A stretch of DNA of 64,000 bases from an uncultured Spartobacteria bacterium (GTDB lineage Bacteria > Verrucomicrobiota > Verrucomicrobiia > Chthoniobacterales > Chthoniobacteraceae). The stretch is taken from positions 1 to 64,000 of the forward strand of contig CAIYUV010000176.1 in the NCBI GenBank assembly GCA_903929475.1, read 5' to 3'. Of the stretch, positions 6,418-55,667 are shown in pieces. Under the pieces are notes generated by a model. That model was not told the origin of the DNA and made no database searches. It saw only the letters and a list, made by a program, of their open reading frames with translations. A program made the translations under genes and the position numbers. Position 1 is the stretch's first letter. Each line of letters begins with the position of its first letter.

Positions 6418-8169
6418 ATGCAGACCATCCAGCAAATTCTCGAAGCCAGACTCCGCGCCGCAGTCGGTGACAGCGGAGGCGTGCCCGTCACCGTGCAGTC
6501 CGCACAGGACGCGCGCTTTGGCGATTACCAATCGAACATCGCGATGCAGCTCGCAAAGCCGCGCCGGGCAAATCCGCGCGCCCTCGCGCAGGAGATCATC
6601 GCGAAGCTCGACGTGTCCGATTTGTGCGAGACGCCGGAGATTGCAGGCGCTGGCTTCATCAATTTCCGAATCAAGCCCTCTACGCTCATCACGCATTTCG
6701 CCGCGCTCGCCGCCGATGAGCGCCTTGGCGTGCCGACCGTTCCGCTGCGGCGGCTCGTCATTGATTTTTCCTCGCCGAACGTCGCGAAGCCGATGCATGT
6801 CGGCCACATTCGCAGCACCTTCCTTGGCGATGCGCTCGCGCGCATCGGGCGTTTCCTCGGCCACACGGTCGTGAGCGACAACCACATCGGCGACTGGGGC
6901 ACGCAGTTCGGAATGCTCTGCTTCGCGTGGAAAACGATCCTCAACAAAGACGCACTTGTCGTTGATCCCATCGGCGAACTGGAGCGCATTTACAAAGCAC
7001 AAAACGAAAGGTGCAAATCGGATCCGGCGCAACTCGACGCCGCTCGCGCCGAACTCGTGAAGCTTCAATCCGGGGACAAGGAAAACCTCGGCATCTGGCG
7101 GGAGATGATCCGACTTTCGCAAGTGCAGTTCGACACCATCTATGCGCGCCTCGGTATCCGCTTCGACGTCACACTAGGCGAATCTTTCTACAATCCTTGG
7201 TTGAAGGACACCGTCACCGCACTCATGGAAAAAGGCATCGCGCGCGAGAGCGATGGCGCGCTGTGCGTCTTCAGCGACGGCTCCGTGCCGGAGAAGGAAG
7301 ATTCATTTTTGATCAAAGATGAGAACGGCTGGAAGGACTCGCCCGCGCTCGTGCAGAAAGCCGATGGTGCATCCAACTACACCACCACCGACCTCGCCAC
7401 CATCGCCTACCGCGTGCGCGAATTTTCGCCAGACGAGATCATCTACGTCACCGATGGAAGACAGCAGCTCCACTTCCGGCAGTTCTTCGCCATCTGGCGG
7501 CGCTGGCAGCCCGCGAGCGCGGTGAAGCTCGCGCATGTGTGGTTCGGCAGCATCCTTGGCGAAGACGGAAAACCCTTCAAAACGCGCAGCGGCGACACCG
7601 TGAAACTCGCCGACCTCCTCGACGAAGCCGTGGAGCGCGCCTCAAAAGTCATCGCCGAAAAAAATCCCGACATGCCCGAAGCCGAGCGCAGCGAGATCGC
7701 AAAGATCATCGGCCTCGGCGCAGTGAAATACGCCGACCTTCTCCCAAACCGCCAGGGCGACTACGTTTTCTCGTGGGAGAAAATGCTCAGTTTCCAAGGC
7801 AACACCGCGCCGTATCTGCAAAACGCCTACGTCCGAATCCGCGCCATCTTCCGTAAGGCGGGTAATTCACCAGTCACGAGTCACGAGTCACCAGTCACAT
7901 TCACCGAGCCCGCCGAGTTCGCACTCGTGAAAAAGCTCGCGCAGTTCGGCGAAGTCCTGCCGTCCATCCTCGACGACTACCGGCCAAACCTCCTCTGCAA
8001 TTACCTCTTCGAACTCGCGAACGCCTACCACTCGTTCTACGAAGCCTGCCCCGTCTTAAAAGCCGAAGAGCCCGCCCGAAGTTCACGCCTCGCACTCAGC
8101 GACACCACCGCACGCGTGCTAGCAAAAGGCCTCGACCTCCTCGGCATCGGAGTCCCTGAGCGAATGTAG
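6418..8169 (+). CDS. argS: Arginine--tRNA ligase
   Basis: SSPNVAKPMHVGHIRSTFLGDALARIGRFLGHTVVSDNHIGDWGTQFGML, FKTRSGDTVKLADLLDEA, and C-terminal DALR-type region. Confidence 0.97.
   Translation: MQTIQQILEARLRAAVGDSGGVPVTVQSAQDARFGDYQSNIAMQLAKPRRANPRALAQEIIAKLDVSDLCETPEIAGAGFINFRIKPSTLITHFAALAADERLGVPTVPLRRLVIDFSSPNVAKPMHVGHIRSTFLGDALARIGRFLGHTVVSDNHIGDWGTQFGMLCFAWKTILNKDALVVDPIGELERIYKAQNERCKSDPAQLDAARAELVKLQSGDKENLGIWREMIRLSQVQFDTIYARLGIRFDVTLGESFYNPWLKDTVTALMEKGIARESDGALCVFSDGSVPEKEDSFLIKDENGWKDSPALVQKADGASNYTTTDLATIAYRVREFSPDEIIYVTDGRQQLHFRQFFAIWRRWQPASAVKLAHVWFGSILGEDGKPFKTRSGDTVKLADLLDEAVERASKVIAEKNPDMPEAERSEIAKIIGLGAVKYADLLPNRQGDYVFSWEKMLSFQGNTAPYLQNAYVRIRAIFRKAGNSPVTSHESPVTFTEPAEFALVKKLAQFGEVLPSILDDYRPNLLCNYLFELANAYHSFYEACPVLKAEEPARSSRLALSDTTARVLAKGLDLLGIGVPERM
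7865..7899 (+). repeat. Degenerate heptamer tandem repeat (aGTCACs) within argS
   Basis: attcacc/agtcacg/agtcacg/agtcacc/agtcaca: five 7-bp units, translated NSPVTSHESPVT. Confidence 0.85.
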
Positions 8170-18300: not shown

Positions 18301-18977
18301 TCTTGCGAAACAGAGTCAACGAGTTTCAGCGATGGAGTTTCGGTCGGCGGCGATTGTGTGGATGCAGAGGGGCTCCGTGCTTTTTCGACGGGACGATCCA
18401 GCGTGGGCTTGCTGAACCACGCGGACTGGTTGCCGCCTATGCCGGGCAGAACAGATGGCCCTTGCTGGCTGGTCTGGATAGGACTCTCAACGGGCGTTGA
18501 TTTATTCAGACGCAATTTCTCGGCAAGAATATCGGCTTCGGTGGTGGAGACCATCGGCTGTTTGGAGCCCGAACGCACCGAGTTTACGAGGCGTGCGAGC
18601 TTTTGCCAGGGGAAGCGCACTTCGATATTGTCGCTGTCGAGAATCTTGTCCCGGAAAATTTGGGGGACGCGTTTGTAGATTTCCGCGAGCGAAATGGTAG
18701 TCTGGCCTTTTGCGATGCGCTCGGAGAGTTCTTTGATTTCAAAGCACAGCTCTGTCTTGAGATCATGCGGCCCGGATTGAAGAAGATGAGCTGGGATGCG
18801 GTGGAGGAAGTCGCCGAGTTCAAAACGCAATTCATCCGGATTGGGGGCCGCCTTTTTCGGTGGCAGGGGCTGCTTTATTTCCGGCGAAGAGCCGGGCGTC
18901 GCAGTCTTCGCGTCCGGCGGATTGGCCGCAGGCTGGGTCTCGGTGGTTTTGCGCCGGAAACGGTTGAGAAATTTCAT
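15309..18977 (-). CDS. Giant coiled-coil protein (1222 aa) with N-terminal basic/globular region
   Basis: Long heptad-rich E/K/A/Q/L sequence; N-terminus MKFLNRFRRKTTE... and globular block DELRFELGDFLHRIPAHLL...NIEVRFPWQKLARLV; ATGA overlap with hflX stop. Confidence 0.85.
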   Translation of the reverse strand: MKFLNRFRRKTTETQPAANPPDAKTATPGSSPEIKQPLPPKKAAPNPDELRFELGDFLHRIPAHLLQSGPHDLKTELCFEIKELSERIAKGQTTISLAEIYKRVPQIFRDKILDSDNIEVRFPWQKLARLVNSVRSGSKQPMVSTTEADILAEKLRLNKSTPVESPIQTSQQGPSVLPGIGGNQSAWFSKPTLDRPVEKARSPSASTQSPPTETPSLKLVDSVSQEAPTPKTDEDDLRISDLPADVARRVATIKGNYERQIAELERQSRLAIDARERNATETERLRAELDQAKGQLSAEKSAASMSRELLEKSSHERQLVQDELNARLKELADIQSQIASLKDESKVAALTSERDALIKQKDYLSTQIAEVTKRGQPPKAAETGGTAGMGAQRQVEELQRRIGTLEASQRENALIISREKELRAKAEKLLAAAEKLQEQSANHMESAKTEMRKEIEASFRQRENEARKSQKELQDQITVLSDHARKATVELENVRGQNVELQKQLEAACPAAIPQPDPLQAQLVAQLESDIENYRDRLKILIRERDEALVSVEKATPSSVVEMENLCSEKLKLEAELNEVRKLQEEQAASMKMIQEQAANDQQRAEKEHKAHEERVASLMQSIESAQRSLSEKRSSLEPALAEAKNELETLNAKYEELAATFKSEQESFEQERQQAAANLREQSLALEQQLTILVHERDQLRHDKDALAVRIKSEAEAREDLISSLDREHTSVVRANEELNRRLADTERALLEIEKEREHHNTSGAAMLGDPALQNEINALQNKLDATIVERDEAQHAAKTRNSALHESETTLNRLAAEHQQVVAEISEERAAKDRLHRDVETLRAELATLRAGREASASAESEILAGQLSEEREKTARISALLSSTKSELFTLRERHDAIAKSHESLVSEKQQLAATLAEMERDHHSTQSDLAAERESIAGTLKTARDEHARNVASLEAERDSSALTQKEADVEIARLRQELSAMDEASAVLKRRNAEEVAAISKANAALHEQHSAEIEKLSRAAQQNESAVAAEREAQQATAAALDEARSTAEHQASELDKLRVALATARHDYDELAQRAALEKSDLRQQLDAIAANKESLAHERETIARNAADLSDKLRKADDELANARKELASLQTEHEELARQRDELTHQLAHITDGPGVAQTATHSEPQHSPRPHSSTPPVIEVFEPEIVFPERENGVSLPRVRPVPIAPPKVGSR

Positions 18978-43976: not shown

Positions 43977-46900
43977 TCACGGGCGGACGATGACTTCATC
44001 GAGGTTCAACAAAAGATTCGCGACCTGCGTCCATGCTGCGAGTTCCGCAGGAGGAATTGTGGGGTCGGCTTTCGACTCGCCGACTGTGATGACTTGCGAT
44101 GCGACATCCGGCTTGGCCCGGTATTTTTCGAGAAAGGCATTGAGCACGGTTTGAATCCGTCCGCTTTCCACAGCATCCGGGCCGCGGTTGAGGGCACATT
44201 GAAATGCGAACGTGATCCGGCTCGATGTCGTGTCGCCGCCCTTTGTGATGATGCGTTGTGCGAAGGCGCGCGCGGCTTCGAAAAACTGCACGTCATTGAG
44301 CAACTGTAACGCTTGTAGCGGTGTGTTGCCGCGATCCCGTTTGGTGCAATACGCCTCGCGGGAAGGTGCGTCGAAATTCACAAGAAACGGAGCCGGAGCT
44401 GTGCGTTTCAAGAAGGTGTAGATGCTGCGGCGATACAGCGCCTCGCCGCTGTCCTGTTTGTAAGAACGCGTGTTGCTGCCGACGAATCCCACAGGCTCCC
44501 AGATATTCGGCGGCTGGTAGATCCGCACGGCTTTGCCGCCGACTTTTTCAACCAGCAAGCCGGACACAAAGAGCGCCTGATCGCGGATCGCCTCCGCATT
44601 CAGGCGCAGGCGTGGCGCACGGGCGAGTAGTCGGTTTGCGGGGTCTTTGCCCAACAGAATTTCGTTGGTGTCGGACGACTGCTGATAGACCTGCGACGTC
44701 ACGATGGTCGTGATGAGCTTCTTCATATCCCATCCGTTTTCGCGGAATTCGGCGGCCAGAAAATCGAGAAGCTCCGGGTGACTTGGCGGTTCACCTTGCG
44801 CGCCGAAGTCGCTGGAACTTTTCACCAGACCAAGACCAAAGAAGTGCTGCCAAAAACGGTTCACTGCCACGCGCGCAGTGAGCGGGTTTTCCGAGCTTGC
44901 GATCCATTTTGCGAGATCGAGACGGTTCGGTTTTGCAATGCCGGCGGGCAGGGGAGGGAGGAAGCCCGGCACATTCGGTTGCACGGCTTCACCGGGTTTG
45001 TCGTAGGCTCCGCGCAGCATGATGTTCGCCTGCCGTGGAGTCGGCAAATCGGCCATGATGAATGTGGACGGGATCGTTCCATCGTGAGCTTTCACTTCTT
45101 TCTCCGAAGTCGAAATGGCGGCAGTCAGCGGCTGTAGCACGGGCTGCGTCTTGGTGCAGATATTGATGAGATAGTATTCCCTCAGCTTCGCCGTCTGCTC
45201 CGGTGTGATTTTGTCGTTTGCCGTGGTGAGGAAATTATTGATGTCCTTCGGCGCTCCCGGCAGCCCCTGCTTTTGATGCTGGCTGCGCCACACTTTGAAA
45301 GAAACGCCAGCGTCGGCAGGCGGATGACTGTCGCCGACGATGGAAAGCCGATCCCAATAGACGAGGCCGCCGGACTGCGTGAATGCAAACCCCGTGACAA
45401 AATCGCTTCCCTTCAAACCAACCTTTTCCGCAGGCACTTCGAGTTTCACCCACTCATCCGCCTTTGGCAGCGGGCCTGCGGAAAAACGCTCCGGCGAATT
45501 GATGACGCCCTGGTTGATCGCATTCACGTCGCCCCACACTGCGCGATGCTTCCAGCCATCCGTGCGAAATTGCAGCATCACCGCACTGGGTAGCTGCGCG
45601 GAATCCAGTCGCACCATCACTTGAATCACTGCGTTCTGCGGCACGTAAAGCGGACGCGCGTCGCCCTCGTAGTAATCGCGCACGATGCCGTCGTCCTGAC
45701 GTTTCAACGCCAGCTTCCCGCTCGCCGGTTTGACCTCCGGTTCTCCGACAAATTTAGCCGGCGACTTGCCGTTGCCAGTTTTCGCCACGGCCTTTTCAGG
45801 GAGTGCATCGTCCATCCAGACATCCTCGACGCGCTCGCCGTTTGCAGGCGCAGGCGCATCGAAGGGATCTTGATAGACCGTGTTTTTCAACGTCGTCTCA
45901 AATTTCTCCCGCGCCTTCTCCAGCTTGTCCTTCAGCGCATCGAGTTGCTGCCGGTTTTCCGGCGTCATGTATTTCAAGACGGGCTTCGTGAGCAGAACGT
46001 TGCCGTCATTCGCCGGGTCGGCAGCGCTGTAGAAGAAGGCATACATCTGGTAAAAATCCTTCTGCGTGATGGGATCGAATTTGTGGTCGTGACACGCAGC
46101 GCACTGCCCCGTGAGGCCAAGCCAGTTTTGCATCGTCGTCGCCGTGCGCTCGGATGCGTAGCGAAAGAGCTGCTCGGCATCAATCGAACCGCCCTCGCCC
46201 GTGGTCACGTTGCAGCGGTTGTATCCGCTCGCGATTTTCTGTTCGTCGGTGCCGTTGGGAATGAGATCGCCCGCGAGTTGCTCGATGGTGAATTGATCAA
46301 ACGGCTCATTGAGATTGAACGCGTTGACCACCCAGTCGCGATAAAGCCACATCTGCCGTTCATTGTCCAAATGCTGACCGTGCGTGTCGCCATAGCGCGC
46401 GAGGTCGAGCCACCAATGCGCCATGTGTTCGCCAAAACGCGGAGATGCCAGCAGTCGCGCGACGACCTTTTGATACGCCTCCGGCGATTCATCCGAGAGA
46501 AAAGCGGACACCTCTTCCGGCGTTGGCGGCAGGCCCGTGAGGTCGAGTGTCACGCGACGCAAGAGCGTGGCCTTGTCTGCGGGCGGGGAAAGTTTCAGCC
46601 CCTCCTGCGCCAGCCGGGCCACGATGAAAGCATCAATGGGATTTCGAATTGCAGATTGCGGATTGCGGATTTCCGGCTGAGCCGGTTTCACGAGCTGCTC
46701 GAAGGCCCAGTGCTTTTGATATTTCGCCCCCTGTGTGATCCACAGCTTCAGCGCCTCCTTTTGCACGGTCGTCAAAGTCTTGTGCGTCTTCGGCGGCGGC
46801 ATCACCTCGTCCGGATCCGTCTCGTTGATCCGCTTCCACAATTCACTGCCCGCAGGATCGCCCGATTTAATCGCGACACGCCCTTCTTCCAGCGCAGCCT

Positions 46901-47108
46901 TCGCTCCCGCCTCTGCATCCAATCTCAAATCCGCCTTCCGTTTCTTCGAGTCCGTCCCGTGACACGCAAAGCAATTCTCAGAAAGTATGGGCCGGATATC
47001 GCGATTAAAAACAAGCTCTCGCACCGGAGCAGCAGTCAACTTCGCCGCCAGCAAAAGCAGGGCAGGGAAGCAGCGATACATCAGGAGGCTTTTTGACATG
47101 GAAGCCAC
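43977..47108 (-). CDS. PSCyt1-DUF1549-DUF1553 protein (copy 3, ~1043 aa)
   Basis: [103 protein letters not shown]. Confidence 0.95.
46637..46671 (+). repeat. Degenerate heptamer tandem repeat (gcRgatt) in the linker of the copy-3 PSCyt1/DUF1549 gene
   Basis: tgggatt/tcgaatt/gcagatt/gcggatt/gcggatt; antisense translation is [14 protein letters not shown]. Confidence 0.88.
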
Positions 47109-47156
47109 GCATTATGCCCCGCACGCGCGCAGGAAAAAGAAATGATTTTCGGCCTG

Positions 47157-54668: not shown

Positions 54669-55552
54669 GCGCCTATCGCTACCTACGCCCGGATGACGTC
54701 CGGCGGCTCGAAAGCTACGAGTTCGCCGCACGCTTGCTTGCGGAGGGATGGCTGAACGGGCGGCACCGCTCGCGGCTGCGCGGGGCCTCGACGGAGTTTC
54801 ACGAATATCGCGCCTACACGCCGGGCGACGCGCCGGGGCTGGTGGACTGGCGCGTGTTTGCACGCACGGACAGGCACTACGTGAAGACCTTCGAACAGGA
54901 GACGAATCTCGAATGTCACCTCCTGCTCGACAGCAGCAGCAGCATGGCGTTTGGCGGCGGCTCCGCGACGACAAAACTCGAATTTGCCTCCTACTTCGCG
55001 GCGGCTCTCGCGTGGCTTGTTGTGCGCGGGAGCGATCAGGTGTCGCTTCAAATTTTCGACGACCGTGTGCGAGAATTTCTCCCGCCGGGCAGCACACGGC
55101 AGCATTTGCACCAGGTGCTCTCCACGCTGGAAAGCAACGAGCCGCGCGGCCCCACGTCGCTCTCCGCCGCCCTTGCGCGTGCCGCGCTTCAGATCCGCCG
55201 CCGTGGGACGGTCATCGTGTTGAGCGACTTCTACGACGAACCCGCCGCCATTTTTGCCGCGCTCAATCCATTCATCCATCGCGGATTTCGCATCCACCTT
55301 TTTCACCTACTCTCGCCGGAGGAGATGGAACTCGGTGATGGCGTTCTCTCGCGCTATGAGGACATGGAGACTCGTGATACACTCACGCTCCACCCGCGCG
55401 CCCTCGCTGAAAGCTACCGCGATGCGCTGCAAACGCACATCACACGCCTGCGCACACTCAGCGCGCAGCGGCGGATTGACTACCATGTCGCGCGCACTGA
55501 CGGGACGTTCTGGCCGCTTTTCGACCGCATCACGGGGGAGGGAGGAAAATGA
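54665..55552 (+). CDS. DUF58 domain protein (VWA-like)
   Basis: GTGA overlap with moxR; GRHRSRLRGASTEFHEYRAYTPGDAPGLVDWRVFARTDRHYVKTFEQETNLECHLLLDSSSSMAFG. Confidence 0.95.
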   Translation: MSAYRYLRPDDVRRLESYEFAARLLAEGWLNGRHRSRLRGASTEFHEYRAYTPGDAPGLVDWRVFARTDRHYVKTFEQETNLECHLLLDSSSSMAFGGGSATTKLEFASYFAAALAWLVVRGSDQVSLQIFDDRVREFLPPGSTRQHLHQVLSTLESNEPRGPTSLSAALARAALQIRRRGTVIVLSDFYDEPAAIFAALNPFIHRGFRIHLFHLLSPEEMELGDGVLSRYEDMETRDTLTLHPRALAESYRDALQTHITRLRTLSAQRRIDYHVARTDGTFWPLFDRITGEGGK

Positions 55553-55655
55553 CGGATGACGGACTCCGAATGACGAATTTTGCACGCCTGCCTGCGGGTG
55601 CGTATTCGCCAATCGTCATTCCACATTCGTCATTCGGAGTCCGTCATCCGTCATT
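55548..55655 (+). repeat. Perfect 31-bp inverted repeat made of 7-bp units, between DUF58 and BatA-like genes
   Basis: AATGACGGATGACGGACTCCGAATGACGAAT (55548-55578) is the exact reverse complement of ATTCGTCATTCGGAGTCCGTCATCCGTCATT (55625-55655); 46-nt loop. Confidence 0.95.
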
Positions 55656-55667
55656 CCGCTACACGCC

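Follow-up and report, generated by a model that had tools for sequence, protein, structure and literature searches.

How does an array of five 7-bp units come to lie, in frame, inside the gene of an essential tRNA synthetase? The case is argS of an uncultured Spartobacteria bacterium, on a stretch of 64,000 nucleotides (the window; Table 1) that belongs to a 4.5-Mb assembly of 295 contigs (G000). In many bacteria heptamers rank among the most frequent long simple repeats, and dispersed heptanucleotide repeats have been described, namely TAACTGA of the Beggiatoaceae (PMC4679880) and GGGNATC of Xanthomonas and Nostoc (PMC4692102). For heptamer arrays in Verrucomicrobiota we found no report in the open-access literature. 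Different words at one and the same coding site make the origin of such arrays testable, because local slippage predicts that the word at the site is independent of the genome around it, while copying in trans predicts that the two agree. Here we compare the locus across the genus and conclude, with a probability of roughly 0.6, that the array in argS represents one copy of a heptamer element that is dispersed, copied in trans and tolerated in loops.

Results

About 2.1 Mb of DNA from the genus was examined. All genomes are drafts and apparently MAGs, and genes were identified from open frames, alignment and Pfam.

Table 1. Features of the window, with positions, strand and the evidence for each.
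Feature	Position	Strand	Evidence
argS, arginyl-tRNA synthetase, 583 aa, host gene of the array	6418..8169	+	Pfam Arg_tRNA_synt_N, tRNA-synt_1d, DALR_1; PDB relatives
Five-unit heptamer array in argS: ATTCACC AGTCACG AGTCACG AGTCACC AGTCACA	7865..7899	+	sequence, TRF, congeners, AF2 coil
ORF of a PSCyt1/PSCyt2/PSD1 (planctomycete-cytochrome type) protein; stop-to-stop frame, start codon unsettled	43980..47111	-	Pfam
AATCCGC/AAATCCG-type array, in frame between PSCyt1 and PSCyt2, encoding 12 residues	46639..46671	-	TRF, frame, ortholog
ATGACGG/AATGACG-type arrays as an inverted pair, intergenic	55547..55656	.	TRF, sequence, predicted fold

The original prediction had placed a heptamer repeat in frame within argS, and our reading of the DNA gave the same letters. 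TRF agrees (7867-7898, period 7, 4.6 copies, 92% match, score 50), the consensus of the approximately five units is AGTCACS, and the ArgS frame is complete, with the N-terminal, catalytic and DALR domains all found by Pfam; the best named relative is a MAG labelled Chthoniobacter flavus (67%). The array encodes residues 483-494 with the peptide NSPVTSHESPVT, and hence the linker between the catalytic and the anticodon-binding domain, past the catalytic model (96-453) and within the beginning of the DALR_1 model (467-583). In the AlphaFold2 model, which has a mean pLDDT of 93.6, the segment is predicted to form a coil between the helices 464-481 and 498-508, and residues 481-490 show the lowest local confidence of the chain (pLDDT 65). 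Solved ArgS structures align over the segment with at most a small gap.

Ten genomes of the genus, G000 included, were compared at the argS linker together with two outgroups (L025 and L026). The linker holds AGTCACC-type units in G000 and G006, four AAATCCG units in G009 (ArgS 92% identical), CTCTCAR/CCCTCAR units in G007 and G008, and GCTCAGT-type units followed by AGTCACC units in G003. No clear array was found there in G001, G002, G004 and G005, and none in the outgroups. G000 and G009 differ at this place over 38-44 bp, and to either side of the difference their argS flanks are 95% identical. On the ArgS tree G009 is nested with G000 and G006 with support 95/95 (the G009-G006 pairing itself has only 89/90), showing that the argS word changed inside a small clade. 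The alignment to relatives that had been proposed as a check gave the expected result: the SPVTSH peptide is absent from the ArgS of 38 other bacteria, whose linker varies in length and sequence, and the array residues are lineage-specific rather than conserved over the phylum.

Measured between RKA and the FTEPAE-like motif, the linker counts 13 residues in G000, G006, G007 and G008, and also in G001 and G005, where it shows no clear array; thus the argS array replaces linker sequence and adds none. The earlier idea of a low-complexity insertion tolerated in a loop is therefore borne out for the loop, given the coil and its low pLDDT, and is only partly right for the insertion, as the length of the argS linker hardly changes; true filled and empty sites are seen in leuS.

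Indeed, leuS provides a second, independent locus. The loop preceding GGVDLYVGG carries an AGTCACC array in G000, G002, G004 and G006, a CTCTCAA array in G007 and G008, and in G005 a 100-bp stretch with inverted units of the AAACCGG/AAAGCGG type; it is empty (GGCAAGCC) in G001 and G009. Thermus LeuS also has no array residues at this loop, so that the leuS array is a true gain. Two more LeuS loops contain arrays or inverted pairs in single species, one in the editing domain (G009, G008) and one near the C-terminus (G002). All copies of argS and leuS that we saw have intact reading frames. Stops are avoided in the coding copies: the G008 LeuS copy has an additional G, by which TGA does not fall in frame, and in G002 LeuS the second arm has TGC at a place where the unit would yield TGA.

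Other changes of LeuS were noted alongside. In G003, past the RSEGAEVRF motif (L203), an in-frame inverted-repeat stretch of about 200 bp (GGGCGGGTATTTTACCCGCC...) without a 7-bp period occupies the loop that holds heptamer arrays in other species. The LeuS of G000 (L194) has about 29 additional residues (PVHHERGDDVSKAFPLPSLSEIEGVEPCHS) between the PLSKAKDWVRYQ and ATRELNTMPQWAG motifs, which are absent from the other nine genomes where these are covered and in which no 7-bp array was detected. Genus-wide, LeuS is more alike between the clades than ArgS, which suggests recombination of leuS within the genus.

Further in-frame arrays were found by Pfam-based assignment in two proteins of G003 (MetH and QueG), in PSCyt/PSD1 proteins, among them the one of the window, and close to the N-terminus of a Gfo/Idh protein. 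The window itself holds two arrays besides that of argS, close to 46637-46671 and 55548-55655, where they had been predicted, and both proved real by TRF, the one by its frame and the other as a hairpin pair. The G009 ortholog of the PSCyt/PSD1 protein carries the same AATCCGC/AAATCCG heptamer family, and the intergenic pair is predicted to fold into a hairpin of -69.8 kcal/mol, with an open frame on either side.

Words are also swapped at intergenic sites with conserved flanks. The array of 17 AGTCACC units that opens contig C12 of G000 corresponds in G009 to an intergenic AATGACG-type array with inverted units, and at another intergenic site an AATGACG inverted pair in G007 stands against an inverted pair of 8-bp units in G008 (GTCAGGGA; L227, approximately 18860-18970). 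In the DNA examined we counted 12 inverted pairs at period 7 versus 0-4 at other periods; some copies span about 80-130 bp. At the junctions a few target bases are replaced and no target duplication is evident.

How widely the units are dispersed was first judged in the source genome. An exact search of the whole 4.5-Mb genome for AGTCACSAGTCACSAGTCAC gave 24 matches, which lie at 7 places, and 0 for the reversed pattern; the AGTCACS places include the C12 run, the in-frame leuS copy and sites outside recognised genes. The C12 run (positions 1-121, L107) is the longest array, and its position at a contig end means that long arrays may break the assembly and be under-counted. In 565 kb of G000 with Ns masked and a score of at least 13, we found 13 arrays of period 7, compared with 0-3 at periods 5, 8, 10, 11, 13, 16 and 17 and with 7 at period 6. 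G009 has 11, compared with 0-1 at most other periods and with 3 at period 6. The genome-wide excess of 7-bp periods that the original prediction had called for is thus present, and with the array residues not conserved over the phylum, neither of the two outcomes that it had named against itself was seen. The arrays are short (median 31 bp, quartiles 28-35), many lying inside verified genes and others between genes.

The excess also appears in the ArgS-fetched loci of other Verrucomicrobiota, of Planctomycetota and of cyanobacteria (18 versus 0-4). Outside the genus the words themselves are patchy: four AAATCCG units in a row occur in 9 of 188 genomes of the class, spread over several families, and among 30 genomes of the same family AGTCACC occurs in none, while MAATCCG and CYCTCAR occur in a few.

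More importantly, the word at a site follows the stock of its genome. Three-unit exact matches to AGTCACC/MAATCCG/CYCTCAR in whole genomes number 19/18/0 in G000, 21/15/0 in G006, 4/52/0 in G009, 0/0/60 in G007, 0/0/26 in G008, 16/9/19 in G002, 6/11/18 in G003, 9/12/2 in G004, 0/2/0 in G005 and 0/0/0 in G001, where reversed patterns give a background of up to 7 for CYCTCAR in the genus and none for AGTCACC and MAATCCG. In G009 the MAATCCG matches are spread over more than 20 contigs. For all 12 scored placements in argS and leuS (12/12), the genome in question holds the site's word at other places as well; G001 lacks all three words and carries an array at neither site. Of 50000 permutations of genome identity, 112, 42 and 4 reached an agreement of 12/12 under the three thresholds used, which were picked post hoc with the counts already seen, and the concordance comprises two genes and three heptamer families. 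One orthologous coding site holds different words in sister species, each matching the dispersed pool of its own genome.

The array-rich genome G026 adds a further observation, on the order of units within one heptamer family. The unit order TTCT (T/C variants) is found there in 11 of 23 four-unit arrays, a level that 0 of 20000 within-array shuffles reach. This fixed order points to the copying of whole arrays; segmental duplication may contribute in part.

Discussion

From these data we infer that copying in trans takes the array as its unit. Recombination would need homology, which unlike words do not offer, and local drift would not bring many loci into agreement; both points favour such copying. 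In the process that we propose, arrays of about 4-5 units (approximately 30 bp), single or as inverted pairs, would be copied to new genomic places, where a new copy would sometimes overwrite an older array. Selection would spare those copies that keep the frame, contain no stop in their orientation and fall within a loop or linker, and the word at a given loop would be set by the species' own stock. Given that target DNA is replaced and that we saw no duplication of the target, the likeliest route is template switching or else break repair, with microhomology or the ends of hairpins as primers.

One alternative is an ordinary simple-sequence repeat, in which a chance 7-bp duplication grew by slippage and its units drifted in a tolerant loop, with no movement between loci. 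Heptamers are known to be over-represented among slippage repeats (PMC4692102, PMC4679880), and one-step variants within single arrays, such as CACCATT with CACCAGT in contig C91 and the MAATCCG mixtures, are what slippage would leave. We nevertheless consider this origin unlikely: local drift gives no reason why many loci within a genome should have an exact word in common, and those of its sister genomes a different one, nor why the word at a site tracks the genome stock, and the fixed unit order of G026 and the inverted pairs are unexpected. Another alternative is a REPIN-like mobile element, in which a RAYT/Y1 transposase would move heptamer arrays as hairpin doublets and the single arrays would be remnants. 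The twelve inverted pairs, the additional opposite-strand matches that several genomes have at distances of about 57-100 bp and the Y1_Tnp genes in most genomes of the family all fit with this. However, Y1_Tnp (PF01797) is as common in the array-free G001 (6 genes) as in array-rich genomes, and G009 has only 2, yet the highest number of MAATCCG matches in the genus. No array adjoins any of the four Y1 genes examined, the nearest lying 1.8 kb away and two having no array on their stretch, and by eye we saw no conserved core among the 12 pairs. We rejected Y1_Tnp as the mover, and the REPIN-like origin appears quite improbable. Separately, RVT_1 (PF00078) was rejected as a mover as it is absent from the array-carrying G000, G002, G003, G006 and G009.

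The swaps could alternatively be imports, if short tracts with different loop alleles were exchanged between species of the genus. LeuS of G005, with 94% in residues 1-540 compared with 84% in ArgS, shows that leuS probably recombines. For argS, on the other hand, the flanks of G000 and G009 stay closely matched around the short difference, and the AAATCCG array fits the own stock of G009, a match that is not expected of imports. Since the origin of the array differences would still need to be explained, we regard recombination as very unlikely to be the answer. Least probable is a functional linker or contingency locus, where the repeat peptide or a change in unit number would alter the enzyme and the arrays would be kept for this. 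The recurrence of arrays at the same loops of the same enzymes is in its favour, but the peptides are unrelated (SPVTSHQ, KSEIRNP, SALNPQP), some species have none, all frames seen are intact and the segment is a low-confidence coil. To our knowledge ArgS and LeuS are not typical phase-variable genes. A conserved linker function as the cause of the argS sequence was likewise rejected on the unrelated peptides, and no function other than tolerance is needed to explain the arrays. An assembly artefact was rejected too, as independent MAGs show open frames and matching flanks.

A stronger form of copying in trans would be a dedicated trans-acting process, which writes heptamer arrays from a changeable template or master array and, at certain sites, replaces old arrays by the word that the genome currently uses, even in essential genes. 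We think it doubtful that such a process exists; if it did, it would be a self-spreading sequence that conserves its period and its length, not its letters.

By unit and dispersal the arrays of the genus are a heptamer-repeat system. They share with STRR-like repeats (the cyanobacterial ones, TAACTGA and GGGNATC) the 7-bp unit, short dispersed arrays, patchy lineages and some copies in ORFs. The known heptamer systems are mostly intergenic, with one or a few words per genome and genic copies mainly at protein ends; in contrast, the genus has many words, arrays in frame within core enzymes and different words at an orthologous coding site. Rickettsia palindromic elements (RPEs) are short dispersed DNAs that are tolerated in frame in metabolic and essential genes (PMC10969869), as are our arrays in argS, leuS, metH, queG and PSCyt/PSD1 genes. 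RPE families, however, are about 150 bp long (consensus 100-150 bp) with a conserved peptide, while arrays of about 31 bp with unlike pair cores and unrelated peptides share only the 7-bp period, the short length and a species-specific word. REPINs are extragenic inverted hairpin doublets tied to a RAYT gene (PMC3116915), and the inverted doublets of the genus are likewise dispersed and predicted to fold as hairpins (12 pairs, among them the one in the window). They differ in that a RAYT/Y1 tie was not found and many copies are coding. Each of these two classes thus has a defining feature that the genus arrays lack.

The comparison also shows that repeats rewrite essential tRNA synthetases as fast as species diverge; this bears on protein evolution, and it matters for annotating peptides such as SPVTSHQ, SEIRNPK and SALNSQL in metagenome proteins. 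Some related repeats were met on the way. Units of 21 bp, three times 7, form tandem arrays of unrelated sequence at L110 10913-11173, L116 6252-6404, and L121 1-156 and 13731-13923. MAGs of the Thermoguttaceae carry ACTGCCT arrays in the ArgS frame at a different position (L069 3548-3573, L079 459-484), and additional ACTGCCT arrays directly downstream of argS.
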